A stretch of DNA of 64,000 nt from Cenococcum geophilum 1.58 (Eukaryota; Ascomycota; Dothideomycetes; Gloniales; Gloniaceae). The stretch covers positions 434,001 to 498,000 of the forward strand of contig KV748244.1 in assembly GCA_001692895.1 (NCBI GenBank). The letters are read 5' to 3'. Position numbers and translations under genes: made by a program. Under the pieces are notes generated by a model that was not told the DNA's origin, did not search any database, and saw only the letters and a program-made list of their open reading frames with translations. The first letter of the stretch is position 1. Every line of letters starts with the position of its first letter. Positions 14,140-64,000 of this stretch are shown one piece after another.

Positions 14140-14590
14140 CGGTTGTCGTGTGGCTCTGGCGACGGTCGTGTGGCAATAACGACGGTTGTCTAGCTCTGGC
14201 GACGGTTATCTGGCTTCGGCGATGGTTGTCTAGCTCTAACGACGGTCGTCTGGCTCTGACGGTCGTCTAGCTCTAGTGACGGTTATCTGGCTCCGGCGAC
14301 GGTCGTCTAGCTCTGACGACGGTTGTTTGGCTCTAACGGTTGTCTAGCTCTGGCGACGGTTATCTGGCTCTAGCGACGGTCGTCTAGCTCTAACGACGGT
14401 CGTCTGGCTCTGATGATGATCGTTTAGCCTCTGGCGACGGTTATCTAGCTCCGGCGACGGTCGTCTAGCTCTGACGACGGTTATCCAGCTCTGACGACGG
14501 TCGTCTAACTCTGACGACGGTCGTCTGGCTCTAACGACGGTCGTCTGGCTCTGACGGTCGTCTAGCTCCGGCGACGGTCGTCTGCTGGCT
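14140..14590. repeat. 20-bp minisatellite
   Basis: About twenty copies of CGACGGTCGTCTGGCTCTGA, with variants in which CGAC is lost or C/T differ. The block remains GC-rich, unlike the RIP-altered gypsy around the element. Confidence 0.88.
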
Positions 14591-14719
14591 GTCGTTCTGG
14601 TGTCTTCCTAGGTAGGGAGGATGTAAGGAAGGGGTAAAAAATAAGGTGGCTACCTAGGTGTATATAGGGGGTATACTTAGCAGAGGTATGTGTAGAGGCT
14701 ATTGGGAATATAGCGGGGA

Positions 14720-15400
14720 CCCGATGCGGAGCTTTGTGTAGAGCCTCCGTACGCAGAGCTTCGTGTAAAGCCTCCGTACGCAGAGCTTCGCGCAGAGCCT
14801 TGTGCAGAGCCTCTGTACGCAGAGCTTTATGTAGAGCCTTGTGTAGAGCCTCGTGTAGAGCTTTGTATAAGAGCTTCCGTGCAGAGCTTCGTGCAGAGCT
14901 TCGTGTAGAGCTTCGTGCAGAGCTTTGTGTAGAACTTCGTGCAGAGCCTCGTGTAGAACTTCGTGCAGAGCCTCGTGTAGAACTTCGTGCAGAGCCTCGT
15001 GTAGAACTTCGTGCAGAGCCTTGTGTAGAACTTCGTGCAGAGCCTTGTGTAGAACTTCGTGCAGAGCCTTGTGTAGAGCTTCGTGCAGAGCCTCGTGTAG
15101 AGCTTCGTGCAGAGCCTCGTGTAGAGCTTCGTGCAGAGCCTCGTGTAGAGCTTCGTGCAGAGCCTCGTGTAGAGCTTCGTGTAGAGCCTCGTGTAGAGCT
15201 TTGTGCAGAGCTTCGTGCAGAACTTCGTGTAGAGCTTCGTGTAGAACTTCGTGTAGAGCTTCGTGTAGAACTTTGTGCAGAGCTTTGTGTAGAGCTTCGC
15301 GCAGAGCTTCGTGTAGAACTTCGTGTAGAGCTTTGTGTAGAGCTTCGCGCAGAGCTTCGTGCGGAACTTTATGCAGAACCTCGAACTTTATGTAGAACTT
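14720..15400. repeat. 12/24-bp minisatellite
   Basis: Roughly fifty copies of a 12-bp unit GTGCAGAGCTTC, often paired into a 24-bp unit as GTGCAGAGCCTC plus GTGTAGAACTTC. Because 12 is divisible by three, several plus-strand frames stay open (for example 14734-15417 and 14925-15395) with Arg/Glu/Leu- or Cys/Arg-rich repeats. These are by-products of the repeat. Confidence 0.9.
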
Positions 15401-17905: not shown

Positions 17906-18285
17906 CTAGGGCTAAAAGAGCGCAATATTATATATATTGTAGTAATATGCCAGCTTATAGCTATAAAATAGATATTATTACTATTATTGCATTTATCGCA
18001 GATATTATATATCTTGCTATTATTAAAATCTATATTTATAATTATGCGTTTCTTTTACGGCTCTAACTCTTTACATATTTACTAGCAGCTTATTTACCTT
18101 TTAAAAGAAAATCCTTATTATATAATGTATTAAACCAATTAAAATTAACCTAAGAATTAATAATAAAGCTCTAGGGCTCTAACCTAAGCTTTAATAGCAC
18201 TATATATACGCTACGGAGCACTAATAAAAGGTTATAAATATAACGTCTATTAATACTTCGTTGGCACTTTACAAGAGATTGCTGG
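17906..18285 (-). mobile_element. Fragment of a second Plavaka-family element, inverted
   Basis: This stretch is the reverse complement of the 3' end of the transposase region of the large element at about 62720-63095. Shared strings include CAATCTCTTG, AACGAAGTATTA, ATTTATAACCTTTTATT, TAGTGCTATTAAAGCTTAGG and AGAGCGCAATATTA. Similarity stops abruptly at both ends. The fragment shows that at least one further copy of this family was once present. It contains no terminal inverted repeat. Confidence 0.75.
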
Positions 18286-43000: not shown

Positions 43001-43996
43001 TAGTTTAGTCGTGGTTAGGTTTATAAATAAGCTTATTACTAAACGTAATTAGTTAGCGTAGGAGGTATACCATCTGCTTTTTAATATTCCCCTTTATAAA
43101 GGCTTTAGGAATATAGTAACTTTAGACTACTATTAGGAGGATAATTAAAGCGCTATATATAAGCTTAATAATGGGCAACTAAGAGGGTGCGGATTGTCTA
43201 ACTATAATAAATATAAGCGCCGCCTAGATAGGGTAGAGGATATTACTTTCCTTAATTTTCTACTCTATTTTAATTACTCTACTTATAAGCGTCGGCTAAG
43301 AGCAAAGCTTTAAGTTATATCGTACTTTCCGCGATATAACGGCGATTATTCCTATTTATAGTATCCTAAGTTCTACCGTATAAAGCTTATTTTTTATTAC
43401 CCGTAAAGGAAGTAGCTACTTATACTAATAGATTTGGGGCCCCTAATTATATAGCTTCCTATTAGGCTTACGTTAACTCTTATTAGCACCCACCTAACTA
43501 CTTCTGCAATTAGAAACTAGAGGAAGGTTATAAAACTACTAATAATATTAATAAGTTTAAGGGCGATTTCGCAGACGACTTAGAGCTATATTAGTCCTTT
43601 AAGGCCCTATATACCTACGTTTAAAATACTAATAGAGTTAAACTTAAGGATCCTAATAGGCTTGGTAATAGGGAGCTTAATTATAACTATAACTAGAGTA
43701 TATATTAGGGTACGTACCTAGAGCTTAATAAGAGGACTTATTGGCAGGAAGTACGGCTATAGCCTCTACCGTAGAGCTGCCTATCCTAAATAGTAACTCC
43801 GTCCTCCTTATAGCCAGGTTAGCGTTATATTTATAATATTATAGTTAATTACTATAGGCAGATCTAAGTGGGCCTTAGCCCCCCCTTACTGCAGATTAAC
43901 GTTAATAGAGAGGTAGAAACCGGCAAATCGCATTTTATTACTATTCTCTCTACTACGCTTTATAATATGGTAAGAGCTAATAGTAAGCCGTTACTA
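40099..43996 (+). pseudogene. Helitron Rep-helicase protein, copy 2, N-terminal part
   Basis: It matches copy 1 throughout. The start codon has become ATA (40099-40101). The HUH region near 42410-42440 again reads YIYGFL, so both His are lost in parallel. The Y2 region near 42898-42925 keeps NYIGKY-S. A 10-bp deletion relative to copy 1 near 43405 shifts the frame. The Walker A region near 43910-43930 reads VETGKSH, so here the Gly that copy 1 lost is preserved (ETGKS). The gene breaks at 43996 in the helicase and resumes at 63241. Confidence 0.88.
40978..41237. mobile_element. Solo LTR in Helitron 2
   Basis: The 260-bp unit starts TGTAAGGGTTATTTTGG and ends ACTGCCTTACA, with a perfect 7-bp TGTAAGG/CCTTACA terminal repeat. 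It is flanked by TTTAG (40973-40977 and 41238-41242). The segment is absent from Helitron 1 at 26590. It is GC-rich and shows no RIP, so it is a young insertion. Positions 41040-41070 have a GGCTAGCCTTCGGCTAGCC palindrome. The short open frame in it is not a gene. Confidence 0.88.
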
Positions 43997-44103
43997 CGTC
44001 AGGAAAACGGAAGAGTGGTTAGGGCTAGCTAGGGGCTAGCCCGGGGCTGGCCTAGGGTCATTTCAGCTGGATCCGCTGATCTGCTTATGTACACTTCTTT
44101 ACG
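43997..44103. repeat. Left terminus with GC-rich subterminal motifs
   Basis: After the terminal repeat come GCTAGCCCGGGGCTGGCC and, at 44103, GCTAGCCCAGGGCT. The right terminus has AAGCTAGCCCTGGGCCCC near 63170. These repeated subterminal GCTAGCCC-GGGC motifs are candidates for transposase binding sites. They stand out against the AT-rich interior. Confidence 0.6.
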
Positions 44104-44129
44104 CTAGCCCAGGGCTACTTTAGCAACCT

Positions 44130-44757
44130 TATATCTTAAAATTATAATATTTCCTATGATTGTAATAGTTATAATATTTCCCACAACTGCAATATTTATA
44201 ATATTTCCCGCGACTGTAATGGTCGCAATATTTCCTACAACTGCAATAGTTGCAATATTTCCCACGACTGCAATATTTATAATATTTCCCGCGACTGCAA
44301 TAGTTGCAATATTTCCTATAACTGCAATAGTTGCAATATTTCCCACGACTGTAATATTTATAATATTTCCCGTAACTGCAATGGTTGTAATATTTCCCGC
44401 AACTGCAATAGTCGCAATATTTCCCGCAACTGTAATGGTTGTAATATTTCCTACGACTGTAATAGTCGTAATATTTTCTATGACTGTAATAATTGCAATA
44501 TTTCCCACGACTATAATAAGTGTAATATTTTCTACAACTGCAATAGTTGTAATATTTATAATGTTTCCCGCAATTGCACTAGTCGTAATATTTCCTATAG
44601 CTATAATAGTCGCAATATTTCTTATAACTGTAATAGTTATAATATTTCCTATAACTATAATAGTTATAATATTTCCCACAACCATAATAGTCGTAATATT
44701 TTCTATAACTGCAATAATCGCAATATTTTTTATGACTGTAATAATTATAATATTTTA
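44130..44757. repeat. 27-bp satellite (about 23 copies)
   Basis: The unit is ATAATATTTCCCGCAACTGCA followed by ATAGTT, with C/T and A/G variants at most CpA-type sites. Since 27 is divisible by three, open frames of about 195-200 residues run on both strands (44104-44685 minus and 44156-44758 plus) with Ile/Thr/Val-rich 9-residue repeats. I regard these as by-products. Confidence 0.9.
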
Positions 44758-44759
44758 GA

Positions 44760-47700
44760 AAGTGAAATATTATCTATATACCTTAGAGGAAGTAACTATA
44801 TATCTAGGTTATTATCTTTAGGCAATCCTAGCCTTATTTTAATATTATTATTTTTCTTTTGCTGTATAGACTCCAAAAATATATCAAATCTACTATTATT
44901 TAGTAGCTTTTCCCTCGTTCTAAGAGTATACTAAAGAAAATCTTCTTCTTTAATACTTAGTAAGTTTTGTAGTCTATCTGGTGTTATTATATATAGTATA
45001 TTAAGTATATATGGTTTATTATCTAAGTTATAGTGCTAAGTAATCCTAAAGTAAGAAGCCTTATAGTTTTAGATAGGCGGGCTATTTATAGTTATTGGCG
45101 GTAAAGAGACTAGGGTTAAGCGTAAAGTGCCCTAGTTAAGTTATTAATGTAATAATTAGAAATGCGCTTTTGCTTACTCTTTAATCTAAAACTAAATCTT
45201 TACTTCTTGCTAGTATTACCTTATCTATATAAGCAAAAGAGGAAGAACTAGTAGGCCTTAAGTTATTATTGCTAGAGATAGGAAAGCTATCTATTACTAA
45301 GAACTTAAACTTGTACTAGGTTGTGTATGGCTTAAGCTTATCTAGATTATTAGTATTATTTGCGTATAGATTATATACTATATACGTATTTTTAACTAGG
45401 TTACTAGTCTTGCATATCTACTTCTAAATAAGACTAGCTATTACCTATAGTAGTTTAACTTTTTTGTTAGAAGCTTACGCGTCCTATATCTTCTAAATTT
45501 AATAGTATATTACTTTATAAATTAATATCTTATAATATATAGGTAGATTAGAGTATTACTTATACCGTTTAGTTCTCCTATTATATTTACTTTAACTATT
45601 TACCGTAGACCTCCCTTTTTATATTTGGTGAGTGCATATTAAATATAAGTAGTAATTAGTATAATAGTGTAAGCCAAAAGTAGGTGAAAATACTTGGATG
45701 TCTGGGGGTGCAAAGCTAGGTCTTTTAAGTTTGGGTTAAAAAAGCATTAAGTAATACACTTAATAATTATGGGTGCTGCGAATCGTTATTTCCCCTTCTA
45801 TTATTAGTAAGTAAACTCTAAGAGTGTATAGTAGGGCTTATAAGCTTTAGATATGCGCATATAAATATATTATCTTTAAGTAGTTAAAAGACTAGAGCTT
45901 AGGTATCTAGTGTATTAAGGAATAGATAATATATATATATAATTACACGAATATTACTTAGAATATATAATCTAAAGTCGCCAATGTAGTTAAATAACTA
46001 TAGTTTTGCGATATATACTGTGTTAGCAGTACTTTAAATATTGCTAGTAGGAGGTATAGATTTTAAAAACTTGCCCTATAAGCTTCTTTTAGTTTAGGTA
46101 GAGGCCGAATATTATTAAATATACGCCCCCGATTGTTTGAACCAGCCTTTTACTAAGCATTAATAATTAGTGCGTTAACGCCCGACTTCTATCTTTCTGG
46201 CTATGGAGAGAGTCTATAGGAAGGATTAAAGTGGCCTATTATAACTATAGCCTATATAAGCAGCCTAGTGTGGGCTAGTATAGGTACGTGTGCGGGTGTA
46301 GAATTAAACTTGGCCCGCTGTCGTACCCCCTACTAGAGTAGTTCTGGTTTATATCTTAATTGTTTTATACTATTAGTGCTTCCGTCCTTAGTAGTGCTTA
46401 GTTAATAATAGCGTTTATTAGGTAATATATTATAATAACCCTATATATATAGGTAAATGGTTAATCTATATACTAGGTATATAGGCCTTACTATTTTCTA
46501 AACTAATGACTTAGAATAGGTGGCAGATTTAAGCTTATATTAAGTTATATTAGTCCTATAGTAATAAGTGTCTTAAGGGCAATAGGGGTATAGTGGAATC
46601 TTATTACTATTGGATTTGTCCTTAAATATGCGCAAGTCTTGCTAAGACTATAAGTTCTACCTTATTAGCTATATACTACTACTATAAAGTGGATATAAGT
46701 CGCACCTGGCTGCTAGACGCTGCAATAACCTATATATTAGATAATTTAGCCATAGTAGAGAATAGTGTTAGTTTAATATATTAGTGTTAAAGATGTATTT
46801 AATGGCCTATAGAAAGAGTACTAATGTAGATTATTAATAAGAGAGAGGAGAAAAGTAAAAATTGTAAAGGGGCTCTTTAATTTTAAGCCCTGCTTATTTA
46901 GGTTAAGCTATCTAGTATATTTAGCCGAGCTAGTATAATATGCATAACCGTGTATATATTAACACTATATTGGAAATATTAGGTATATAAAATGTAGTAT
47001 AGTGCGCGAGATGGTTAGTATAATATAAATATAATATTAGGCCCTTGGTTTTTTTTCTTAGGCTAGATAGAGGTCTCCCGTTTCCGCTTTAATTTATTGC
47101 TTACTAATTCTACTTTATATATAGAAACCGTTAGTCTAAGTATACTACTAATTTCCTATATAGATGCCCTTAAACCCTTAGGCCTAAAACGATTTCTCTC
47201 TAACTCTAGTTATGTTTTAGGTAGCGTTAACAATAAGTTGCTTATAACGGCTTATGGTATAATGGTTTTGATATATATAGGTGTAGTGGCTAGGTGTAGT
47301 GTACCTATTTAAATGCGTTAGAATATTTTTAATATTGCTAAAATTACTTATATAATCTATCTTACCTTGGTCTTTGTATCTTACTATAAAATAAAAATAA
47401 TTAAGTCCTTTGGTATATATTTTATCTATAGCAGCCCTCTAGGTTTATTTGGTAAGAACTTCTATCTCCCTTCCTTAGCTATTATAATAGAAAATTCTAT
47501 GTTTTGTGGGATTAAAGCCGATATCTTTTAAGAGTACGCTAGTAAATAGACTAAAGTCTAGATTAGTTGACGTAATTTTATTGTCTGGTATACTACCGGC
47601 CGTAAAGTATCTATAACCATACAGCATTTCCTAGCTATCTCCTTTGTAAACTATTTTAGTTTACACCGTCCTAAATATAAGGCTGTTCTAAGTAATTAAC

Positions 47701-48440
47701 TCTAGGTCTTCTTTGCTTAGTTAGCGTATATTAGTTGATTTAAGACAATATGTAACGGACTTAATTTATGCTGGGGTTGTTACTCTATCTAACACTTAAC
47801 ACTTTTAATTATTGTTATATTTTTAGGCGATTGTGGATAGACACCTACTCTACTAAGGTTCTAGTATGCCTATAAAAATAGTAGGAAATATTTTAATTAT
47901 ACTATAAAACACTTAATTAAGTCTTAACCGGTTCCTAACCTTATTTAGTTATAAACTAAGTATTTAAATATCTATAAGTCCCTGTTCCATAATAGAATAA
48001 ATGTTGCTATATAATATTTCATTAATTTTTAGGCCTAGGTAGATGAACTTTACTAACCAGTTCTTTGTCGCGTGGGCTTTATATACTAAAGAAAGCAATA
48101 TAGGTTTGGATTGTTGTTCCATTTACGCGTAAATGCCCAGTATAGTGCTGTTAATTGTTGTTAGGTAGTTTATAGTAGGGGTTATAATTAAGTAGGGGTT
48201 AGCATAAAGGAAAAGGAGTTATATAGCGGCTAAACCTAAATAGGTATATCTACCGATTATTTACAATATTTATAATATATTATATTAGCAAATATTATAT
48301 TTATTACCTCTCTTATAATATTTATATATATATAATAACCGTAATATCTTTATTATATATACTTAGAGCTAGGTATTATAAAATATATTATAATTGGTAT
48401 ACTATAGAGGCAGTGCCTACTTAGCTAGTAGTATTAATTA
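44760..48440 (-). pseudogene. Unrecognised minus-strand coding block of the large element
   Basis: Minus-strand frames with stops only at Gln/Trp-type codons can be read in several places. Near 46350-46080 the text is YKPELL, GVRQRAKFNSTPAHVP, LAHTRLLI and IVIIGHFNPSYRLS. Near 46760-46430 it is VIAASSSQVRLISTL, KVELIVLARLAHI and STIPLLPLRHLLL. Near 47330-47040 it is THLNRYTTPSHYTYIY, RYKQLIVNAT and ITRVREKSF. I recognise no domain. It lies downstream of SNF2 gene A in the same direction and may be one or two further cargo genes. Confidence 0.4.
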
Positions 48441-48449
48441 AGCTAGTTA

Positions 48450-51400
48450 AGTATATAGAAGAAACCGTCTATACCCTATTATATAACCTTACTAGTGGAA
48501 CCCGGTTTTAATATATATTAAGCAATCTTAAATAGCGAAGTACTAAAAAGGCGCTTCTTTTTAGTATAATGCTTTAGCGCTCTAAAGAAAGCGCCTAGTG
48601 TAAAGATTTTATATTTTTTAGCCCGCTGCTAAATATATACCTCTATATTAACCTTACTAGATATAGCCCTAATATCCGTAACTTTATCTTCTAGCTGTTT
48701 AATCCTATAGGCATGTCTAAATGCCTAAGCTTTAACTATAGGTAGCGGCTATGGCTTAAATATGAACACTTTACTTGCTCTAATTAGAGTATATACTTTA
48801 GATATTAGGCTGGTAGTTAATATAAGGAATTTTAGAGTGGGGTTATTTTCGAATTCTTTAATAATTGTCTCCCTTTCTTCTATCTTAAGCCTACCGCTAA
48901 CTAACTTATAGCTACCTAGTCTATACCTATTAAGAAGATACTAATCTAGCGTTAGAATATAAAAATATTGCTTTAAGAATAGATAAGATATACTAGATAA
49001 ATAATAAAGGCGGCTACTAGGAATGCTGTAAAGACGACTAACTTCTTAAGATGACCTTTGTAGTTAGTCCCTAGCTAAGTAAAAACTATCTTTAAGGCAT
49101 CTATTTTTAGACTTAAAGCTCTAATAAAAGGCAGTTCTTACTTAAATATAAACTGATTGGGGTTTTTGTAATGGTTGAGCATATAGCCCTTTTTTTTTAT
49201 TACCTTCTAAAAATGAGCTAGTGAAAGGCATATTAAAGTCTTTGCCCTTATTTTTCTAGAGTTGCAGCTCTAGGAAGTTTATAAAGATTTAAAGCTTATA
49301 GGTAAATATAGAGCTAGACCAGTGTGGTTTTATAGGTTTTTAATTAGCGTTTAATCCTTTCCGCTTTTACTTAACCAATTTCTTCTTATATGCTGCATTA
49401 ATCTCTTTCTTTAGTTTATCTATAGCCCTATTTAATCGCTTTAAGACTTTAGGTATATACTTAACGCGAATATTTTAGTCTACTCTTTGTACGTTAATTT
49501 TAATTAATGGTTTGTTATTAAACTATTATATATTTATAGAGCGCCTAATTATAAATTGCGAAATAATGTTATAAAAACCGTTAATAATGGCCCCCATTTC
49601 TTTCTTAGCCTCCTTTAATAGCTTAGCTTTTATTTAAACTATTTTATTTATTTTTGCCTATAGCGTATAGATATTAGGACTAAGTAACAGTTTATAATTA
49701 GGCTTTTCTACCTATTCTTCCTCCTGCCCTATTGCTAAGGTTTATAGAAATGTAGTAAGATTACTAGGGCTAGTGCCTGCTAGGGTGCCCAAATATCCCT
49801 AGAAATAGATATTATTTGGTAAAGCCTAAATCGCAAGCTCTCTGGTTATGGTTTATAACTAAGTTTAGCTGTTCTTAGTGGCATAAAACTTATTAAGAAA
49901 TATATAGAGCTATACTACTACGTTTAATTGATAGTGTGTTCTAGGTAGAAACTCGCCTAGAGAGTATAGGAATCGTTATTTCTAATATCTAATGGTTATA
50001 GCGATAATGAAGCGGGACGAGTTAGTAGGAGGATTATATAATATATCGTTCGGGTTATTTAAATTAGGCTCCTTATAGCTAAGAAGGAATTTAGGGTTAT
50101 TTTTCTAGCACTTCTAGGCCGTTCCCGCGTAGTTGCCATATATAATTTAAAACTGAATATCCGCGGTGCCCTTATTCTTGCCTATATTCTCGCGTATTAT
50201 AGCTAAATAATTTTCGCTAAGTACTAACTTAATGTTCTTTTTCCATACCAATAGAGCTTTAGGTGGTGCTATTACAAGCGTTAGGCTATTAAGTCTTTTA
50301 AATATGGAGTATGGATTCTTGTTAATATATATGCACTAAATTAGTAGGCTACCCTGTAAGGGGCATTACGTATTCTTAGCTTCCCTAGTAGAATAAGTAA
50401 GATATAATTTATCTTTTTTTGCTTAGGAATCCTAAATAGCCTATTAATTAATAATAATTAATCTGTTTAATAGATGGATAAGAATTATGGTAACTGTCTT
50501 GCCTAAGCCTATCTAGTCCGTATATACTCCGCTATTAACGTTATATTTTTTGTTTATAGTTTAGTAATAGGCGGTAATTAGTTAATATTTTTTCGCTTTA
50601 AAGGATTTTATAACTGGCTATAGCGGTAATAAAAGGCTATCTGCGTTAAGGTTGGTGTTAGGATTAAGACGGAGGTATCTACATGCCTCTAACTATAGAG
50701 TTTTGTTAATATATTTGCATTCCTTCTTTATTGCCTAATTAAAACTAGAATTTAAACTAAAAAAAATTAGTTTTCTATTAAGGGAATATCCGTATTGGAT
50801 ATATTGAAGATATATACACGTATATGCGTCTAAAGAATATAGCATTAAGATTATTCCCTTTCTCGTCGTCTGTATAGTCCTTAAAGTCGTTTTTAGCCTT
50901 ATTACCTACATTAGGGAGGGGATTATTATTACCTTTATTATTACTGCTGTTATTAGATAATACCTCTATTACGTTTATTATATTTATTCCGTTTTTTTTA
51001 ACCTATATAATTTTCTTAATTTTATAGTGTTCTGTAGTATCCGCCGACGCTAGTAGCGGAGGTAGTTAACTATTAGAAGTATCTGCATTGCCCTTTTTAG
51101 AGGTTCCGCCTATTATAGTATCCTTTCCGCTAATAGTAGTAGTCTTAGCAATACTAGGTATAAGATGGTTGCTATTATTAGGAATACTAGTATAGATTAA
51201 TGGCGAGTTAGTTAGGGTAGCGTTATTACTAGAACTAGTGGATTTTTTAGTAATAGCTAGTTTCCGAATATTGGTCTAAGGCGTTGTTAACGTGGAAGTT
51301 ATACTATTTAGGTTTAGAAATAGGTCTAATGTAGTCTATCTATCTAATTGGGATGTAGCTGGATTTTAATATTAGTAATATACTATAAGAGCCGCAATAC

Positions 51401-52300
51401 TTATAATATAAAGCATTTACGTAGAGGTTGGACCTCTAGCTTTAGTATCTATAAGCTAGAGTTTATAGTATTGCTAATTATAGTAGCTAACTCTTTTTTA
51501 TTCCCAATAGGGCTAAAGCTATTCTATAAATACTTAGTATTAAAGTTAACGGGATAAAACGCGCTACTAGATGCAGTGGCTTTTAATATAAGCTTATTCT
51601 AAAATAAACTATTTAGCGTCTAATTAGTAGACCTATAAAATTTATTTTTTATAATAGCTTAGAGACGAAACCGAATAATGGTAGTATTAGAACTGTGAGA
51701 TATATATATAGTGTACGCTAATAGGGTCACTTTACTTTTAATATAGTGTGGTAAGATTCCGGCATAAGGGTTGGCTTTAGGTATTTCCGGTTTTGCTTAA
51801 TAATACCTCTTATAACCTTTCCGGATTTTATTTAAGTGTAGAGGAATTAAGTTAGAGTTATCTTCTACGTCTATTAATAAAGTTAGCCTCTTTTAACTTG
51901 GTAGTTCCGATTTTACTCTTAATTTATTTAATTTTATCCTTATAATAAGTGCTAAGTAGCTCCTCCCCGTAAACGTTTAACTAGGACACTACTTAAAGGC
52001 GTTAATCTTAGTAAGTGTAATTGTTTTTATATTGCTACGGATTTTAGTCTAGCGGTATTATTTGGCCTTAAAATATCTATGTTCCTTAAATATCTTTTAA
52101 AGTTAGGCCTTAGCCGTAAGCAGCCTAAGCGCGTTAATTGCTAAACCTTAATAGACTATTGTGTCTAATGGCTGGACAGTAGCCGAGGCGTACTAGACGG
52201 GATGCGGGTATAAGGGTTTATTATTAACAACGGGCTATAATTTAGGACCTATAATAGTGGGTTAGTATAAATAGTAAAAGGATAGACTAGCTTGGCTTTA
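48450..52300 (-). pseudogene. SNF2-family ATPase, copy A (degraded)
   Basis: The SNF2 family uses ATP to move along DNA and remodel chromatin or proteins on DNA. Reading leftward: a Ser/Thr/Asn-rich N-terminal linker (SIAKTTTISGKDTIIGGTSK near 51150) and ISNTDIPLIENQFFLVQI near 50790. Then come motif I, YTDQIGLGKTVTIIL, at 50515-50475 (one stop) and motif Ia, LTLVIAPPKALLVWKKNI, near 50270. Motif II near 49900 reads FLNKFYATKNS, where the family would have a DE.H box: Asp to Asn, Glu to Lys and His to Tyr all fit RIP. YLGTLAGTSPSNLTTFL follows near 49790, then FIIRRSI near 49540. The C-terminal helicase lobe starts with HLKKLVVFTAF near 49040. Start and end are approximate. Confidence 0.75.
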
Positions 52301-52589
52301 ATGGCCTATATAGTTTAACTTACTAAGCTCGCTTTTCTAAGAAGTTATTATAAAGAGCCTCCTTTTAATAATATCCGGCGTAAGAAGATATCTATATTAG
52401 GATAAAAAAGGTAAGATAGTGGACTTATAATGGAAGATATAAGGTAGAAAAGGTCTACTAACTATATAGGTGAATAACTAACAACTAAGATTGCATTGGT
52501 AAGGTGAATTAATTTAAGAATTAAACTAAAATAAAATAAATGGTTATTGCGCGTAATATTGGCAATATTAAGCTGGGTATAATAGATTA

Positions 52590-53100
52590 AATGAAAATAA
52601 TTTGGTGATATGCCTTAGATTAGGGATTCTAGGGAAGTAAAACCTATTAGTGCTAGGTGTAGCTAGGATGCGAGAAGGTAATAAGTTAAGCTTATAATTA
52701 TTGTAGATATAAGATGCCTTAAGTATGCGACGCAGTACGTTAATATTTATAATATTGCAAAATATATTAATATAATGGTCTAGTAGTATGCCCTAGATTA
52801 GGGATTAGGGGAACTAGAACTTAGGTAGTGCTATTAAGAGGCGGGAACTAAGGTTACGAGGAGGTAATATTGCGACTATTATATATATAGTATGCCTTGG
52901 GTATGCGATATAGCACGCTAATATTTACGATATTATAAACCGTACTAACGTACGGGTCTAGTGCTATGCCCTAAAGCTAGGTGGTGCTGCTAAGAGGCGG
53001 GAACTAAGGTTATAAGGAGGCGATATTGCGACTATTGTATATATAGTATACCCTAAGTATGCGAATTAGTGTATAAATATTCGTAATATTATAAACTATA
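52590..53100. repeat. ~180-bp repeats upstream of SNF2 gene A
   Basis: Three copies of a unit holding TTAATATTTATAATATTGC, ATGCCCTAGATTAGGGATTA, AACTTAGGTAGTGCT and GAGGCGGGAACTAAGG, with spacings of about 179 and 154 bp. The same array recurs at 58820-59470. It lies just upstream of the SNF2 gene, so it may be part of a promoter or a terminal repeat of the duplicated unit. Confidence 0.75.
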
Positions 53101-53259
53101 TATCTATTTATCTATCCATCTATCTATTACCTACTCTCTATATTAAAATAAATTTCCTCTTACCTTAACTATACTAGCCCTTAACCTATTTTAAGTAAAC
53201 GTGGTAATAGTATATATACTAGTAAGGAGTTATAGATATCTTACGCTAATTAGTTATTA

Positions 53260-54350
53260 CAGATAAATGAAAAACCTAAGTATATAGCCACCTTAGCTAA
53301 GCGTACTAAGCGTCCCTATATTAAAAAGGCGTTATTAAAGAATAGAGATGGAACTATAAAGCCAGCTCTAAAGCTATAAAAGAAGAAGGTGGCGGATAGT
53401 TGCTAGAAGGAGATTAAAGGGTTTCTAATTAAGTAAGAGAAGAATAGTAAGGTAGCTAAAGCTATAAAGATAGTTTAGCTACCTCTTAAGAAGCCTTTGC
53501 TAACCTATTTTGTCCTACTAGCCGCTAGAAATGCCGCTATATATAGTTTAGAGAGAACTAAGTTAAATAAAAATAGCGCTGTGGAGATAGCTATTACGGA
53601 AACTAGAAAACTATAAAAGGGGGACCTCTTTAATATTATAAGTTAGATAATTAGTTATATAAAGGAGGAGTAGGATGCTTTATAAACTGCGTTAGCTGCT
53701 AATTGCTAGAATATTAAGAGTTTAAAGACTGATATTAAGGAACTTTAAAAAGCTAAAAAGGCTTAAAATATATCTATTGTTAATCTAATCTAGGATACCT
53801 AAGTAATAAAGCAGGACTATTTTATAAAAGAGCGCAATAAGTTAAAAGTAGAAATTAAATAGATTAAGAAAGCACCGCTAGAACTAGTTACGCTAAAATA
53901 TAAGTATAACTAGCTTAATACTGAGTTTAAGGACTTAAAAGAGTCCAAGATAGCTAAACTGGACGCTATAAACTAAAGACTTAATAGTATCTAGAAAACT
54001 TTATCCGTCTAAATAATAAATATAAATAGCTTTTTAAAGTCGTAAGCGACGTTGGTAACTACGCCGGTTTAATAGCTAATAATTATTATAGAGAGGCTGG
54101 CCGAGTAATTAAGAAGCTGAAGGGTAAGCTATAGAATGGTGGTTTAATAAAAATCTAATAGGGGTTAATAAGGAGCTTTTAAGGCGATTATAACGGCAAA
54201 TGCCTAAAATTGAGATGGGATAGGGCTTTTACTTTATACGTTTGCTATCTTAGCTATTTAAAGAATCTTAAGTAGGCGGCGTATAACGTGGAAACAATTA
54301 AAGTTGCGTAAGTGGTGTAATAAGCTATTAGAAATAAAATAAACTTAATA
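53260..54350 (+). pseudogene. Lysine-rich coiled-coil protein of the large element
   Basis: The plus frame reads LLQINEKPKYIATLAKRTKR then PYIKKALLKNRDGTIKPALK. Later segments include LPLKKPLLTYFVLLAARNAA, SLERTKLNKNSAVEIAITE, GDLFNIIS-IISYIKEE-D, and LVTLKYKYN-LNTEFKDLKE followed by SKIAKLDAIN-RLNSI. It is about 360 residues long. Heptad-like spacing of Leu/Ile with many Lys/Glu suggests coiled coils. Stops are all TAA/TAG at Gln-like places. No catalytic motif is seen and I recognise no family. It is the only plus-strand gene between the two SNF2 copies. Confidence 0.45.
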
Positions 54351-54639
54351 AAAATACTATTGCGCGAGTTTGGAGGTATATACGGGGTCGTAAAAACTAT
54401 AACTCTGGCGGTAGACGAGATTTTAGATATTGTATATATAGCATATAACGTAGCATATTAATATTTATAATATTGCAAGAAGTGCTAATACGCGGGTTTT
54501 AGTAGTCTTAAGGCCTAATTTTATAAGTTACGCTTCTTAGTATATATATATATATATATATTAGAGATAACTATTTTTAATCTTATTAGGCTAGCTCTAA
54601 ATTATAGTAATTATATTACTTACCGTACTACTACGCCGT

Positions 54640-57600
54640 AAGGACTTTTAGTTGTAATTTTATAAATTTAATTAAAATATAACCCCTTCCTAATTCTTAT
54701 AATTAAACATTTCTATATATAACACTATGCTAAGGATTATAATATAGATTGCCTAGATATAGCTTTATTATAATATAACGGCTTTACGCTAATTAATTAA
54801 TCTATAGCTCTAAAGTCTAGATTTATAATACTAAAAATAAGCTCTAAGTTATTAATTTTATACCGGTAGAACGAAACTTGCTAAGAGTTACTATGCGGAT
54901 CCTAGCCGGTAGAAGTAAGAGGCCTTAGTAGGCCTTAGTATTAAAGTCGTTAATAATAACTTTATCCCTCTTAACCTAGATCTAGCTAGCTATAAGACGG
55001 TAGGTGTTTTTGCTATATTTATATCTAAGAGATTAAATAATAAGTGGGGTGTAAGAATATTGCGCTTATTGTAAATATAATATACTAGGCGTATTATAAA
55101 TGTGAATATAGGGAATATAGTGAATATAATTAACTTCTATAGATTACATTTGTAAGTAGGCTAAAGTTTAGTAAGAATAGTCTTTAAGGTATCTATACTT
55201 AGGCTTATCTATATAAAAGAGTCTAACTCGCCGTAAAGGATTAAATTGTTAAGGTTCTTATAACAGCTAAGGGTATAATTTTATTTATTCTTGTTTTAAT
55301 AAGTATACGGGTGTAATAGGTATATTAAAACCTTAACCCTTATCCTTTTAATTATGCTATCCTGGAAAACTGGTATAGATATAAAGGCTTTCTATAATGC
55401 TATACTAAGCTAATATTATTCTATAGTTTTATATTATGGTTTTAACACTTTATATATCTAGCCGACTAATTTCTTACTATATAATAGCTTAAACTCCACT
55501 TTAAGGTTATAAGTGGCCTCGTTTATCTGCTTTATAGTGGAGGGATTATAGGTAGTATAGGAGTTCTGGTTAGTTCGCATTGTTTTAATCTAAATAAGTA
55601 GTTCCTTAATAAACTACTTTATCTTTATTAAACATCTAATAATAAACTAGGGGATAATACTATGGAAGCCGTTTATAATCTCTTACATTTTCTTCTTAGC
55701 ACCTTTAGTTAGCTTTACTTTTGTCCTAACTATTTTATTAATACTTCTCTGTAGTATGTAGATATTGGGACTAAGTAGCAGATTATAACTAGGCTTACTC
55801 TCCTATTTATTACCTTGCCTTATTAATAGAGTTCCTAGAAAGGCGCTAAGATTATTAGAAACAGCGGCTCTTAAAGTACTGGAATATTACTAGATGAGGG
55901 CATTGTCTGGTTAGCTAATTTTTGTAAACCTACTAATTGACTACTAGCTCTAGGTTAAGCGCTTCTTAATGGAATTGGATAAGATGTATATAGTGCTATA
56001 TAATGGGGCATTTTAGGCTTTATAGTCTGTGTTATTTTTATACTTAGGGGACTTAAGAGATTTTTTTAAATACTTTAATATTATGGTAATAACAAAATTT
56101 AGATAAGCTAATAAGTGGGGTATCTACATTAAAAATAATATTGCTTTTACGGTACTTAAGAATATTAGAGAGGAACTTGTAGTGCATTTTGTTATAATTG
56201 TTATGGATTAGCTAAAACTAAATATCCCTTCTACTATTTATATCTACGGATTTGCGTATGTCCTTGATATATTAATAACTAAGCCCTACTTTTATATTGT
56301 TTACCTAGGCTAATAAACGTCTAGGTGGTGCTATAAGAAGCGTTAGGCTATTAACTCTTTAAATTTAGAATATGGATTCTTACTAATATAGGTATACTAC
56401 CTTTGTAATCTATCCTATAAGGAGCATTACGCGCTTTTGGCTTTCCCTCCGGAATAAGTAAGATATAATCTATATTTTTTTACTTAGGAATCCTAAACGG
56501 CCTGTTTATTAAAAATAATTAATTGGTTTAGTATATAGGTAAGAATTATAATTATTGTCTTGCCTAATCCTATCTAGTTAGCGTGTATACCGCTATTAAT
56601 ATTATCTTCTTTAAATATAATCTAATAATAGGCGGTAATTAGTTGATATTTTTTCTCCCTAAAGGATTTTATAACCGGCTATAGTGGTAATAGAAGGCTA
56701 TTTGCGTTAAGGTTGGCGTTAGAACTAAGACGGAGGCATCTATATACCTCTAACTATAGATTTTCGTTAATATGCTTACATTCTTTCCTTATTACTTAGC
56801 TAAAGCTAAAATTTTAACTAAATAAATATTAGTTTTAAATTTAGAGAGTGTCTATATTGGATATATTGGAGATATATACACGTATATATATTTAAAAAAT
56901 GTGGCATTGGGATTACTAATATCCCTTTCGTTCTTATAATCTATAAAGTCGTTTTTAGCGCTATTATCTTTACTAAGGAGGGGAGCGCTATTATCTTCGT
57001 TATTACTGCTATTAGTAGACTCTACGTCTATAGCGTTGTTTAGAGTTATTAGATTATTTTTTAATTGTACTATCTTTTTAATCCTATATAGCTTAGGGGT
57101 ATCTATTAACGCTAGCGGCGGAGATAGCTAACTTTTATAAGCATTAGCATTGCCCTTTTTAGATATTCCGCCTATTATAGTATTATTTTCGCTAATGGTA
57201 GTAATCTTAGTAATACTAGCTATAAACTAATTACTATTTTTAGGAATATGGGTAGGGATTAATAGCGGGTTAGTTAGGGTGGTATTATTACTAGAACTAG
57301 TAGATGTTTTAGTAGGGACTGGTTTCTAAATACCGGTTTAAGGCGTTATTAGCGTAGAAGTTGTGCTGTTTAGGGTCGGAAATGGGCTAGCTGTGACCTA
57401 TGTATTTAATAAGGATGTAACTAGATTTAAATATTAGTAATATGCTATAAGAGCTATAATACCTATAATATAAAGTACTTACGTAGAAGTTGGACTTCTA
57501 GCTTTAGTATCTATAAGCTAGAGTTTATAGCGTTACTAGTTATAATAGCCAGCTTTTTCCTATATTAGGTAGGGACTATAGTTATTATAAGGGCGCTTAG

Positions 57601-58300
57601 TGTTAAAGCCTATAGGCTAAATCTTACTACTAGGTGCGATGGCTATTAATATAAGCTTATCCTAGTATGGGCTAACTAGTGTCTAGTAGGCAGACTTATA
57701 AGGCTTCTGCCTTATAATAGATTGGAGATAAAACTGGTAATAATATAAGTAGTACTAGTATATATTGTTATAGAGCAAGCCTATAGAGCTACTTTACTCT
57801 TAATGAAGTGCGGCGAGATCCTACTTGGGGCGTTAGCCGGAGGTGCTTTTAATTTGCTATAGTAATGCTTTTTTATAAGCTCTAGTGTTTTAGACTAGCG
57901 AGAAGACACTAGGTTAGAATTATTCCTATTGCCTATAAATAGTGTTGCCCTCTTTTAGCTTACCAATTCTAGTTTTACTCCTCCTACTATTTTAATTTTT
58001 GCTTTATAATAGTGCCGAGCAGCTCCTCTCTATAAATAGCTAAATAGGATACTGCTTAAAGGCGGTAATTATATTAAACGCTAACGCTTCTATATTACCG
58101 TATATCCTATACTTAACGTATTCTCTAGCGCGAACACAATTATAAGTGCTAAGTATATTCCCAACTTGGTTCTGGCTTCCCTATAATATTGCCGCTTTAA
58201 GTTTTAATCTCTTAGGGTTTATCTTATAGGATAATTAGATAGCGGTCTTGGCGTCCTAAACGGTATTTATATAGAGGGAAGAACCCTAATAGTGGGTTAA
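54640..58300 (-). pseudogene. SNF2-family ATPase, copy B (degraded)
   Basis: This is a diverged duplicate of copy A, in the same direction, about 6 kb to the right. Motif I reads HAN-IGLGKTIIIILTYIL at 56580-56530. ILIA-YLNFVITI text follows near 56100, then FLGTLLIRQGN near 55830, FIIRCLIKI near 55610, and a C-terminal lobe with LQKLIIFTIFPIFTFIIRL near 55130 and LARSRLRGIKLLLTTLIL near 54950. Part of the motif Ia-II region is shorter than in copy A, so this copy also carries a deletion. Upstream sequences of the two copies match closely (52590-53100 and 58820-59470). Confidence 0.7.
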
Positions 58301-58819
58301 AATACGGATTTTAGAATAATTAATTAGCGTAATTAGTAAATGGGTAGACTAGTATAGTACTAATAGACTAAGATATATAACTTGCTAAACTTAAATATAA
58401 GAAAGGATATGATGCGAAGACCGCCGTTAGTAAAATATTTTATAAGTTATTTGTAATATAGTAGGAAATATAATAGAGAAAAGAGAAGGTTAAGGGTTAA
58501 ATGTTATAAAAGTAAACGACTAGAAGCTAGAATCGTAATAGTAAAGTAAATTAATTTTATAAATAAGTATAAAAGTAAAAGTAAAAGTGCACTAACCCTA
58601 GATATTGGCAATATTGCAAAAACATATAATTGCCTAAGGGTAGAGGTGTCTTATAACTGGGATTCTAGAAAAATATAATTATTGTATAGAAGATATAGAT
58701 TAAAAGCTTAGGTAGAGGATTTGGATATTATAGATAATGCACGTATTCTATTCCTTAGGTATATAGCGCGATGCTTAAATAACTATAATATTGCGGAATT
58801 TTATAGTTATATAGAGCTG

Positions 58820-59470
58820 TAAGTGTGCCCTAGATTTAGGATTCTAGGGAAGTAAAACCTATTAGTACTAGGTGCAGCTAGGATACGAGAAGGTAATAAG
58901 TTAAGCTTATAATTATTATAGATATAAGATGTCTTAAGTGTGCGACGTAGTATATTAATATTTATAATATTGCAAAATATGTTAATGTAATAGTCTAGTG
59001 GTGTGCCTTAGGTTAGGGATTAGGGGAACTAGAACTTAGGTAGTGCTACTAAGAGGCGGGAACTAAGGTTGTAAGGAGGTAATATTGCGACTATTATATA
59101 TATGGCATGCCTTAGGTATGCGATATAGCACGTTAATATTTGCAATATTATAAACGGTACTAATGCGCGGGTTTAGTGTATGCCCTAGAGCTAGGGGTCA
59201 CAGGAACTAAAACTTAGGTAGTTCTGCTAAAAGGTAGGAAATAAGGATGCGAGGAGGCGATATTGCGACTATTGTATATATAGTATGCCCTGGGTATACG
59301 ATATAGTACGCTAATATTTGCGATATTATAAACCGAACCAACGTATAGGTTTAGTAGTGTGTACTAGAACTAGAATCGTAAGAAATTGAAATCTAGTAGT
59401 ATTAATAGGAGATAGAAGGTAAGAATTTTAAGGTTAGTAATTTACGAAAGTTAGATATCTATAATATTGC
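58820..59470. repeat. ~180-bp repeats upstream of SNF2 gene B
   Basis: The unit is the same as at 52590-53100, with copies at about 58956, 59140 and 59320. It includes the strings AGTAAAACCTATTAGT and GAGAAGGTAATAAGTTAAGC, found at the matching place of the first array. This marks the right edge of a segment duplicated with an offset of about 6.2 kb. Confidence 0.75.
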
Positions 59471-59799
59471 AAGAATTACTATAACGTAGAGCTGGTAGTA
59501 TGTAATAAATTATAGGCCCTTAAATTTTTTTAAAATAGGCTATTTCTAGTTATTAATATTGCAGATATTACATTTTTAGGTATTTTATTATTAGTGGATT
59601 ATATAATACCTTATAAACTCTACGCGTAAGTAGTTTATAAAAAACCCTTTATACGCGTCTACTCTACTCCTTACTAACTATAAAGCTGGAAATAATAATG
59701 TTATATTTACTTAATATATTACTACCCTAGTATAAGAGTAAGTTAAGCGTTAATAAGCCGTAAATACTAGCTAAATCTATAATAGTTACTGTATACTTT

Positions 59800-62700
59800 A
59801 TGGATAGAAGATATAGCCGATGCTATGTAATCCTACGTTCTACTAGTGGCGCGGAACGTTATAAAATAAAATATAAATATAAGGATGAAATCTAAAGGTA
59901 AAGTAACCCCTAGAAAAGGCGTAGATGTAGAAATAGGAATAAACCGGTCCTATTTGACTATTAAACTGCCAATGACGGATTTAATAATATACTGGAAATT
60001 GTTAACCGTAACTAATAAATATCTTCTAAAGACGAGGGCTTTGTATTGCGTAATAATAATATAGTAATTATTACTGCTAAAGGGATATCTACCCTACTAT
60101 TAAATGACTAGGCTATATGCTGTAAGGTACCTACTATAGAGACCTCTATTAACTAACCGAAACCCCCCCTATAAGAGAGAGGATTGTTATTAACTGCGAT
60201 ATCTATTAGGATAGAAGGCTATATAAAGGTTACTAGGAGAGGTGCTGGTAAGCTAGTGCAATACTGTGCGACTAAAGATAAGACGTAGTTGTATTAGCAA
60301 TGCCCTAATCTATCTAATGACGGCAGAACCGAATTCTACCTATTTTAAAGTAAAGTAGAGTATATACTTACCCTATTCTTTATCCAAGAAAAAGTGTTAT
60401 AGGGGGCTATTAATCGATTTCTACGAGACCCCTGGCTTGCTCCGCTATTATAAGATTAGATATCTATAAAGAACTTAAATGACTTGTTTTAGAGATATAA
60501 TTAATTAAACTAGGCTATTATACTTGAAAAATAGGAAGAATGCACGTTGCAAGTTAATAAAGGAAAGGATTTAATTAAATAGACTAAATACTATATCCAA
60601 TATAGAAGTATTGTATAGGTACTACGGTTCTTACTAGGCCACTAGCTATTCGCCCCAGTCCGACTATTTAACGATAATAATTCACGGATATATATGGAAG
60701 TTTATACCGGTAACTATTGGTAGTATTAGCAGGACCAGCTTCTACTGGGCGCTACTATAGTGCCGCTAGTTATTGCGACTAATAAGACCTTGCTGTTTGA
60801 ATAAGGTAAAATAATAATATATCTAGTGTATACTTTGGTGTTTAACTTAAATAGCCGAACTTGCTATATACAGAAACGCCTAGGTATAGTATTATTTGGG
60901 TTTATTCCTATTATAAAGGGGTAGGTTAAATTAGAAGTATACTATACCGTAATAGAACTTATATTAGCCCATAAGTGCTTTAAGCTACCTACCCGTATAT
61001 TACTAACTAATAGTATTTTAAGCGCTAGAAATGATTTTAAAGACTAGTATTTATATTGCCTATGCGGACGGAAAGATAAAAGTATGTTACCCTATTATTT
61101 TATTAATAATGGCAGACTATAAGGAGTAAGTTATAATTACAGGTGTAAAGAATCTTTAATAATGCACTATATGCTAAATACCGCCCAACTAGTAAGGAAA
61201 TCTCTAGGCTAAATAGAAGTTCTATAATTATATAAGCATAAGATAATAAATAGAGCTCTAATCTAGAAGGAATATTAAACAGTTAGATAATACTTGGGTT
61301 TACCTATAATAAAACTTTGCCTAGAAGCATTACTTAGTAAATATCTATATATATATAACTCCTAATATACTGCACCAGCTTATAAAAGGGACAGCAACCG
61401 ACCTAATTGACTAGACTAAGAATCTCTTGCTTAAAAATACAAAACTATAGCAATTAAAAGGGTAACTAAAGTGGTAGGGTTTAACTAAAGACTATATTAA
61501 TGCCGTGCTGAACAAACAATTTAGTTAAATACTGGAATTTGTTAGTATAAAACGGTTTAAAGAGTTTATATCGGTTAGTTAATAGATAGGCCATCTCCAG
61601 AAGGATATAATATAATAGCTTATAGCGGTACTGGCACCCCTTATACTAAAGGAATATACGGGAGCAATGCTATATACTTAAGTAGTCTTAGACTTTATAA
61701 TGCTTGCATAATACGCTTTATATAATGATAATACTATTGGGTATATAGAATATGCACTCTATATTATAGACTAAATAAAAACCGCCTTCTCTAGATTTCG
61801 CCTATTTTACCACGCAACGTAGGAATAGTACTTTAATATTTTAAAACTTTATGCTTTTACCTACTACCCCTACTATATTTATAAGATAGGTAGCCTTACT
61901 GGTGTAGATATTAAGTATAGTAAGGTTATATACAAACTTTTAGTAAAGGTATTCTTTAACTATATAAATAAGCGCTCTAACTACTAGGAGTAATTACTCT
62001 ATTATAATACCCGGTACCTTTAAATAATAGTAATAGAAGAACTCCGTATGCTTAAAGTGACGAAACTTTTATCGCCAGCAGATATTGCTAAGGTAGTTTA
62101 TGCTATAACCTTAACACAACTAGTGGACCTAACTAATATAGGCTGGTTTATTAACTAGGACAATAGATATATAGTGGAAGAGGCTAGTATCCTAATTAAA
62201 ATATGGCGCTAGGCATATTAAGTTGAAAATAAAATAGGGCTTTTTGGTTTTATTAAAGCACTAGCTATATTCTTATAAGAGAATTATAATAAGCAGGATA
62301 GAACCTTTACTACTAATATTTAAATAAATTGTAGAGAAGAGGATTCTTCTAAAGTAGGCTTATACTTTGTGTGTATCTATAACTTAGTATAATATTAAAA
62401 GCGGGATAGAAAAAACCTAGACTCTATGGCTAAAGAGTTTATCTAATATGTATATAATTGGCAGAGCTAAGGTAAATGGAGACGAGACTATTTATGGGTG
62501 TAAGAGTATACGCAAACTGCTACTTTTGGGCAGATATACCCTCTTAGCAGTATACTTCTTAGAAAAGCTTAACTGATTATTATAGTTATAGATAAAGAGA
62601 GGTTAAACTTGTAGGGTAGGCGGCTTTAATATATAGGTGTTTTGGTTAATCTGCTTTGTCTTAAAGATATAGGCCGGGTAAACGATTTTTACGGTATAGT

Positions 62701-62910
62701 AGAGGTGGAGCTATAGCAGCAATCTCTTGCAAAGTGCTAACGAAGTATTAGTAGACGTCGTATTTATAACCTTTTATTGGTGCTCTATAGCGCGTATATA
62801 GTGCTATTAAAGCTTAGGTTAGAGCCCTAGAGCTTTATTATTAATCCTTAGGTTAATTTTAATTAGTTTAATACATTATATAATAAGGATTTTCTTTTAA
62901 AAGGTAAATA
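59800..62910 (+). pseudogene. Plavaka-type transposase (CMC superfamily), degraded
   Basis: The plus frame starts with an Arg/Lys-rich stretch (KRRRCRNRNKP near 59918). SSKDEGFVLR follows near 60020, NRFLRDPWLAPLL near 60412, and the hallmark FNDNNSRIYMEVYTGNYW at 60667-60720, then LLGATIVPLVIATNKTLLF and VLFGFIPIIKG near 60890. Downstream text (YCLCGRKDKSMLPYYFIN near 61050, ERLNL- near 62600) continues to about 62910. The order of D.DSR.Y.EM.TG.WW and GATI.P.I...DKT.L blocks matches fungal Plavaka transposases as I know them. Stops replace Gln/Trp throughout. It would have acted on the CGTCAGG ends. Confidence 0.8.
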
Positions 62911-63238
62911 AGCTGCTAGTAAATATGTAAAGAGTTAGAGCCGTAAAAGAAACGCATAATTATAAATATAGATTTTAATAATAGCAAGATATATAATATC
63001 TGCGATAAATGTAATAATGGTAATAATGTCTATTTTATAGCTATAAGCTAGCATATTGCTGCAATATATGTAATATTGCGCTCTTTTAGCCATAGCCATT
63101 TGAGTATTGTACTTTTAGCTAGCGTAGTGCTGGCGCATTGCTCCGGGCTTTGGCGAATATGGCGGAAAGCTAGCCCTGGGCCCCAAAAACGCTTTTAGCG
63201 AAACTAAATTTCCTACGCCACTCCCCGTTTTCCTGACG
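62911..63238. other. 3' flank and right terminus of the large element
   Basis: An AT-rich stretch with a CGATAAATGTAATAATGGTA-type satellite remnant is followed by a GC-rich end with AAGCTAGCCCTGGGCCCC and the terminal repeat CCGTTTTCCTGACG. There is no gene. Confidence 0.75.
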
Positions 63239-64000
63239 TATTAGTTCGAGCCGCCCCTACTAGAGTAGCTGCCTTTAATATTAACGGTAGAACTATATAC
63301 AAACTATTAAGGTTGCTAGTAAATCGCCCCTTTAAGAAATTGCCTACTGCTAGTCTTATACCTCTATAACAAGCTTTTAAGGATATTTACTATCTTATCC
63401 TTAATAAGAAATCTATAATCGGGCAAGTATATCTAGCCTAGATTAATCGCCGCCTCCGTTAGATCTACCCTACGCGTAACAACAACTACTTTAAAGGCTT
63501 AAACATCTTACTAGTAGGCGATTTCCATTAGCTTCCCCTTATAGGTTAGGCGGCCTTATATAGTAATCTACCCACTAGGCCGTTAGAGCCCGCTAGCTAT
63601 AGAAAGGGAGCCTATAAAGTAATTAACCGAACTATTATCCTAGATTAAGTTATGCGGCAGGGCGGTAATAATACTAAGAGCTTTATATTTAGGACCGCCC
63701 TTACGGAGCTATATAGTAATTCTATAAGTAATTTAACCTAGAAGCTTCTTTTAACTAGGTATAAGTAGGGCCTATCTACTAATAAGGTTGCGGGCTTTAA
63801 TAATATAATTCGGCTATATAGCATACGCGCTGCTATAAGTAAGTATAATACTATTTGGCTTCGCGATCTTTTATAGCTAGTAGTGGCTATTAAGTTAGTT
63901 AATACTAGTGTAGGTGCGCAGAAAGTTACTTCTAATTAGTGCGATACTATAGAGAATCTAGCCCTATATATTAGCGCGAAAGTAATGCTAATATATAATA
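63239..64000 (+). pseudogene. Helitron helicase, copy 2, continuation (cut by window end)
   Basis: It resumes the frame broken at 43996: LVRAAPTRVAAFNINGRTIY near 63240, then LLVGDFH-LPL near 63505. Walker B keeps its Asp here (it is Asn in copy 1), although a stop follows. It continues with PTNKVAGFNN- near 63780 and YISAKVMLI at the window end, where it matches copy 1 at about 30090-30110. The rest of the helicase and the element's 3' end lie outside. Confidence 0.88.

Follow-up and report, generated by a model that had tools for sequence, protein, structure and literature searches.

A giant Plavaka-type transposon of Cenococcum geophilum with SNF2-type ATPase genes as cargo

Introduction

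Can a DNA transposon bring along a chromatin motor of its own, or are ATPase genes that lie between its ends there by chance? The question is raised by a stretch of 64,000 nucleotides from the fungus Cenococcum geophilum 1.58 (assembly GCA_001692895.1, contig KV748244.1, positions 434,001 to 498,000), which we call the window (C69:434001-498000) and from whose first letter positions are counted. Earlier reading of its letters, the original prediction, had described positions 43997-63238 as a transposon of the Plavaka type, a group reportedly named, together with KDZ, in a 2014 paper, which would carry two SNF2-type ATPase genes and other cargo. We find that this segment of 19,242 bp is a complete DNA element inserted at TA and that both ATPase genes, SNF2 A and SNF2 B, accompany the full-length transposase gene in 16 of 16 copies. 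The frame of SNF2 A was preserved as two subfamilies of the element diverged, and SNF2 B is a decayed copy.

Ends and target site

The boundaries of the element were read from the following features.

43995..43996 (no strand): left target-site duplication TA, from alignment of the flank to the empty site
43997..44010, + strand: left terminal inverted repeat CGTCAGGAAAACGG, an exact 14-bp repeat
63225..63238, - strand: right terminal inverted repeat, an exact 14-bp copy of CGTCAGGAAAACGG
63239..63240 (no strand): right target-site duplication TA, from alignment of the flank to the empty site
27848..30114, + strand: stretch aligning with both flanks of the element, with the empty target site at 29353-29354; the label "Helitron" for it comes from the original prediction

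The two 14-bp repeats are exact and inverted, as had been claimed; with up to two mismatches, 0.10 matches to CGTCAGGAAAACGG are expected, and two were reached in 1 of 100 shuffles. The predicted TA duplication and empty site also hold, the window containing a second copy of the flanks without the insert, in which the left flank stops at 29354 and the right flank starts at 29353. Because the flanks meet there with an overlap of 2 bp, TA, the 19,242-bp segment was inserted at TA.

Genes of the window copy

From left to right, the element comprises its left end, a DUF6532 gene, SNF2 A, SNF2 B, the Plavaka transposase and its right end. All genes of this copy are broken, mainly by repeat-induced point mutation (RIP), and Pfam searches of it were run with stops read as X. 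Insertions and deletions are called indels below.

44787..48290 (extent approximate), - strand: left gene with a DUF6532 domain (45609-45818), from the Pfam match; fixed frame-disrupting indels at 46937 and 48191
48401..52388, - strand: SNF2 A, an SNF2-type ATPase gene broken by RIP, from motifs and profile matches; no fixed indel between subfamilies
54881..58591, - strand: SNF2 B, a decayed tandem paralogue of SNF2 A, from the duplication; GLGKT at 56556-56570
59562..62928 (extent approximate), + strand: Plavaka transposase gene, from its PF18759 domains; no fixed indel between subfamilies

The transposase foreseen at one end is recognized by PF18759 in two frames of the + strand, at 60562-60984 with 47.1 bits and at 61013-61402 with 48.8 bits, the cut-off being 26.3 bits. 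SNF2 A and SNF2 B stem from a direct duplication that spans about 4.3 kb (48843-53096 versus 54935-59155) and is 66% identical, in line with the two SNF2-like genes proposed for the middle of the element. Taken alone, the window copy gives weak matches on the - strand to SNF2 (13.0 bits) and Helicase_C (15.1 bits), both under the cut-off. The further cargo that had been announced is the DUF6532 gene, which scores 21.8-26.7 bits against a cut-off of 24.

Copies across the genome

The genome searched comprises 177,193,698 bases in 162 contigs. A DNA search with the transposase gene returned at least 16 full-length copies of it, including that of the window, and one broken copy (C19). SNF2 A occurs in 16 of these 16, whole in 14, in two pieces in C3 and cut by the contig end in C146, with the rest on C56; SNF2 B occurs in all of them too, and the order of A and B is the same throughout. 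This constancy indicates that the SNF2 genes are cargo of the element and neither later insertions nor an assembly error; no separate ends were seen around them, and the arrangement recurs at independent sites. The giant cargo-bearing family that had been postulated is thereby found, as Plavaka elements of about 19-21 kb, and a second Plavaka family with SNF2 genes is described below.

Apart from the window copy, we examined eight others in part or whole, and seven copies were aligned, leaving out C3 with its nested inserts and C146/C56 with its contig break. Within subfamily 1 (window, C43, C11 and C2a), identities are 0.914-0.918, transitions making up about 8% and transversions about 0.1%; within subfamily 2 (C2b, C22 and C9), identities are 0.901-0.913, with 8.5-9.3% transitions and 0.2-0.6% transversions. 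Between the subfamilies, transversions amount to 0.9-1.2%. Variable C/T columns are biased to CpA, for which 3,329 columns are variable versus 592 invariant, CpC and CpT being mostly invariant. Differences so dominated by transitions and so biased to CpA are the mark of RIP on copies that hardly differed at the time of insertion.

Eight copies could be read at both ends, and they are near-equal in length and have different flanks, except for C3 with its extra inserts. Five have a TA duplication (window, C43, C11, C22 and C3, the left end of the last with three mismatches), one has TT (C2b), one has GGA (C56/C146, if the two contigs hold one copy) and one has none. In C2b and C22, a second end lies 239 bp further out, and the target duplications were taken from the outer end.

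With at most one mismatch, the terminal 14-mer occurs 137 + 148 times in the genome versus 4 + 6 times for a backward control. Among the first 100 listed of these 285 places, 30 of 35 end pairs are 1.4-2.2 kb apart and are probably short non-autonomous elements; one of these short elements (L028, 345-2445) has about 110-120 bp in common with each end of the large element and is flanked by a 3-bp duplication, ATT. One end pair on C27, 19.8 kb apart, was dismissed as a chance pairing of an isolated right-end piece with the end of a short element. Within the window, an inverted piece of the right end lies at 17906-18284 and is 95% identical.

The SNF2 A protein

Motifs of an SNF2-type ATPase are legible in SNF2 A at the positions below, of which all but the intron were placed by eye.

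50495-50509, - strand: motif I, GLGKT
50249-50272, - strand: motif Ia
49868-49897, - strand: motif II region
about 48695-48898, - strand: helicase C-terminal lobe, from the Helicase_C match
48941..48993, - strand: probable 53-nt intron (GT..CTAAC..AG), from the frame change in seven of seven aligned copies

The regions of motifs III and VI are legible as well; that of motif II is eroded by transitions in the copies and aligns opposite the intact DExH box of the protein P0001, described below. In all seven aligned copies, the reading frame of SNF2 A changes once between the lobes, which the 53-nt intron would probably account for. An intron-shaped pattern matched in five of the seven, in four of these at a nearer AG (48 nt), which C2a does not have.

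A check with SNF2_N, Helicase_C and Plavaka profiles had been suggested. The transposase lies above its cut-off, as given above, and the part of SNF2 A behind the intron matches Helicase_C (PF00271) in seven of seven rows, with a best E value of 2.8e-6 (first row 20.2 bits, cut-off 23.5). The N-terminal lobe fared less well, the element's own rows reaching 13-16 bits against the Pfam cut-off of 24.9, with E <= 1 in three of six rows; copy C4:5283598 passes this cut-off only together with its neighbours in frame. The best profile matches in the PDB are Snf2/Rad54 (E 2.5e-6) and INO80, and a plain protein comparison with the read-through SNF2 frame groups it with Snf2/Rad54 and INO80 at E 3.6e-4. 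A tryptophan synthase chain (E 0.0025) that surfaced in the profile search is unrelated and was taken as chance.

When an SNF2 frame from the second family (C42, see below), which is less mutated, was used as the query and 7,996 candidates were scored, one protein was found, P0001 (616 amino acids; jgi, 5 metagenome contigs, the longest of 8,983 bases), with 78% identity across 81% of that query. P0001 is intact, has an SNF2 domain of 36.9 bits (cut-off 24.9) and can be aligned with six rows of SNF2 A, the alignment spanning 534 columns (99.5%, E 3e-23). It was not found in the viral contigs searched, and the far SNF2 frame of C42 gave no match in the PDB at 0.1.

Preservation of the reading frame

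The two ATPase genes have had different histories since the subfamilies parted. Between subfamilies, fixed frame-disrupting indels number 0 in 4,098 bp of SNF2 A and 0 in 3,367 bp of the transposase, 8 in 3,711 bp of SNF2 B and 2 in 3,504 bp of the left DUF6532 gene, and two spacers have 17 in 2,492 bp and 6 in 970 bp. A recount with boundaries not set at indels gave 0 in 3,900 bp for SNF2 A (0 in 2,358 bp for its domain part), 8 in 3,586 bp for SNF2 B, 0 in 2,660 bp for the transposase and 1 in 3,101 bp for the left gene. At equal rates, the probability that all eight indels land in SNF2 B and none in SNF2 A is 0.0026. Single copies do have indels, such as one extra base in the SNF2 A of the window.

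The frameshifts of SNF2 B relative to SNF2 A recur in both subfamilies, which argues that B was already broken in their ancestor. The original prediction had the ATPase "retained in duplicate"; this was wrong, as only A kept its frame.

Fixed transversions are densest in SNF2 A, at 9.5 per kb; SNF2 B follows with 7.9, the spacer with 7.5, the left gene with 5.2 and the transposase with 3.0. The transposase is thus clearly constrained, and the preservation of SNF2 A finds support in the indels and hardly any in the substitutions.

A second family with SNF2 genes

A protein query with SNF2 A, for which 66 of 132 candidates were scored, matched its own family and nine further loci at 24-34% identity; the SNF2 loci listed for the host were not among its matches. 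Seven of the nine are accompanied by a Plavaka match on the opposite strand, at a distance of about 4-14 kb. One of the elements concerned, on C42, is 21,078 bp long with TA on both sides and, from the one copy in which its ends are known, is bounded by TATTAGGAAATTT on the left, which is mutated, and CATCAGGAAATTT on the right, read inward. It holds a Plavaka gene, a DUF6532 gene and a tandem pair of SNF2 genes whose mutual identity is 37% across 1,062 columns.

The transposases of the window family and C42 are 28.6% identical; the corresponding values are 32.7% for the window family and a third element on C16 and 29.4% for C42 and C16 (over the longer matched stretch, with stops counted as mismatches). 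Since an SNF2 pair is present in a family whose transposase is about 29% identical, the association of SNF2 with Plavaka either is old or arose twice from a related source.

Stop-rich SNF2 matches also occur on C71, C75, C36 (at 7153 and 35817), C100, C93, C72 and C52, mostly away from listed Plavaka matches. Several span much the same profile positions (about 48-220), and they may belong to a further mobile element that carries SNF2.

DUF6532 and ZNFX1 as recurrent neighbours

The genome has at least 123 Plavaka matches, some genes being in two pieces. Eight places from the DNA search with the transposase gene brought these to 131, the set used for DUF6532, and removal of 13 pieces that belonged to genes already counted left 118, the set used for ZNFX1. 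DUF6532 regularly accompanies Plavaka: 54 of its 76 matches in the genome have a Plavaka match at most 35 kb away, where about 5% would be expected. Fourteen of the 54 are on the same strand, 3.9-4.6 kb downstream, and 23 are on the other strand, 14.7-16.6 kb upstream. In a study of Ganoderma, KDZ, Plavaka and DUF6532 stand together among the domains limited to parasitic and symbiotic fungi (PMC8955403).

A second recurrent neighbour is the ZNFX1 domain (PF25396): of its 65 matches, 57 have Plavaka no more than 35 kb away, and all 57 are on the Plavaka strand. In the C16 element, it stands between DUF6532 and Plavaka (e.g. C16:952417-952659, L035), where the window element has SNF2. This domain is a hallmark of a host helicase that acts in RNA-based silencing. 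As compared by eye, none of 23 matches to the helicase core AAA_12 lies near the Plavaka-linked ZNFX1 domains, though RIP may hide some; one of the 23 adjoins a ZNFX1 domain in an unmutated gene (C16:2569004-2571322), which is probably the host gene. The Plavaka-linked pieces, with no core detected, might act as decoys. At another locus (L037, C30:1713000-1722900), a Plavaka piece is accompanied by a ZNFX1 domain that is unmutated and by DUF6570, a Helitron-linked domain.

Possible function of SNF2 A

The account that we favour, and consider quite probable as a whole, is that of a Plavaka element that spread as one unit, with its DUF6532 gene, SNF2 A, SNF2 B and transposase, mostly with 2-bp TA duplications, and was then struck by RIP, SNF2 A keeping its frame and presumably serving the element and SNF2 B decaying. 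The transposase would cut and insert the element, presumably with the DUF6532 protein as its regular partner. The SNF2 A motor could loosen or clear nucleosomes or bound silencing proteins on the DNA of the element or on its targets, which would let the transposase be expressed or act. That SNF2 A is indeed such a remodelling or clearing motor in the service of the element we hold to be an evenly balanced proposition. Its role in chromatin access or anti-silencing is one that we infer, and it might instead take a direct part in the transposition complex, translocate DNA in some other role or be a passenger.

Several observations weigh against this account. Stops are present in all SNF2 A copies listed, RIP having broken them, which means that protection, if there was any, did not last. 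A working copy of the transposon family was not seen in the genome. Fixed transversions in SNF2 A are not rarer than in the spacer (9.5 versus 7.5 per kb), and third positions hold 18 of its 39, a weak excess (P 0.066), so that the case for selection on SNF2 A rests on the indels, for whose first count the gene boundaries had been drawn after the indels were seen, the recount using other boundaries. With the C11 copy of SNF2 A as the query, no match at E <= 0.001 was obtained in the protein collection (8,000 candidates scored), and neither the profile of the SNF2 A N-terminal lobe, nor a second profile (A3), nor P0001 matched in the PDB. Among the distant SNF2 loci, that on C23 has only DUF6532 nearby, about 16 kb off, and that on C81 has neither Plavaka nor DUF6532. 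Finally, no target duplication matches at the two ends of copy C2a, and for copy C9 a right end was not found.

The decay of SNF2 B and the unreduced transversion rate of SNF2 A would suit SNF2 genes that are passengers, host genes caught by chance and without a role for the transposon. We nevertheless judge this unlikely, since SNF2 A kept its frame between subfamilies while 17 frame-disrupting indels were fixed in a spacer and eight in SNF2 B, since SNF2 recurs in a Plavaka family of about 29% transposase identity, and since the Plavaka-linked SNF2 proteins match each other and not the listed host loci. An equally improbable alternative is that SNF2 A is an ATPase helper of the transposition machinery, which loads or remodels the transposase complex, and not a chromatin or anti-silencing factor. 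The linkage of SNF2 to transposase and DUF6532 in two families fits such a helper; however, no SNF2 match was seen in the one ZNFX1-type element read, on C16, so the helper may not be generally needed, a thin argument given that RIP hides weak matches. A nested or composite artefact, with SNF2 inserted later or with the termini of a small element enclosing unrelated DNA through assembly error, could draw on the commonness of close end pairs and on the chance pair of C27, but the shared gene order of 16 of 16 copies and their near-equal lengths in different flanks, C3 apart, refute it for this family and leave it hardly any probability.

Beyond the favoured account of the window family, a broader reading is tentative and, in our estimate, rather doubtful: Plavaka may have an old SNF2 lineage of its own that predates the split at about 29% identity, with sister families carrying ZNFX1 in its place and giant Plavaka elements being systematic carriers of counter-silencing genes, a counterpart to the carriers of TET/JBP.

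Comparison with known elements

By its transposase and target duplication the element is assigned to Plavaka, with an end one base off that of PlavakaB, an element of the CMCT clade (Kojima 2025, PMC12730594). As described there, PlavakaB resembles the window element in its Plavaka domain, in target duplications of 2 or 3 bp and in an extra gene of possible anti-silencing use. For the Plavaka transposases of this clade, the paper names catalytic residues D, D and E together with C(2)C and H(3-4)H motifs. Among the copies studied here, duplications of these lengths are the TA, TT and GGA of the eight copies read at both ends, one of which has none, and the ATT of L028. The ends of PlavakaB are CATCA..TGATG and those of the window element CGTCA..TGACG; the right end of the C42 family, read inward, is CATCA as in PlavakaB, its left end being mutated. 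The cargo is different, PlavakaB carrying TET/JBP and the window element SNF2 and DUF6532, neither of which is mentioned in the main text of that paper. Tet_JBP had no match in the C. geophilum genome or in the control genomes, so that this search was without a positive control.

Plavaka elements with extra genes are thus already known (PMC12730594), and the statement in the original prediction that they usually hold little beyond the transposase is incomplete. KDZ and the other TET/JBP transposons treated there are likewise DNA transposons carrying a gene that could act on silencing, but they differ in their transposase and in encoding a base-modifying enzyme where the window element has an SNF2 motor. 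No open-access paper was found that pairs Plavaka with SNF2 or Plavaka with ZNFX1, subscription literature being mostly outside the scope of the search. To the host SNF2/Rad54/INO80 ATPases, SNF2 A is similar in its legible motifs, in Helicase_C and in its best PDB profiles, but it differs in that its query, with 66 of 132 candidates scored, found none of the listed host loci.

If SNF2 A serves the element, a chromatin motor would be encoded by a mobile element, and it would become testable how a DNA transposon itself handles nucleosomes and heterochromatin, without relying on the host. Together with the published TET/JBP cases, this would show fungal DNA transposons acquiring diverse components of the silencing and chromatin machinery again and again. 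The constant company of SNF2 genes in this element, and in a distantly related one, suggests that tools for working on silenced chromatin are among the cargo of some transposons.

Other features of the window

A tandem array adjoins the left end of the element.

44145..44755 (no strand): 27-bp tandem array, of a length that varies between copies and subfamilies

The element is A+T-rich, and its open frames of at least 120 codons lie only on this array. Large tandem arrays of 20 and 24 bp occupy 14145-15383, in the G+C-richest part of the window.

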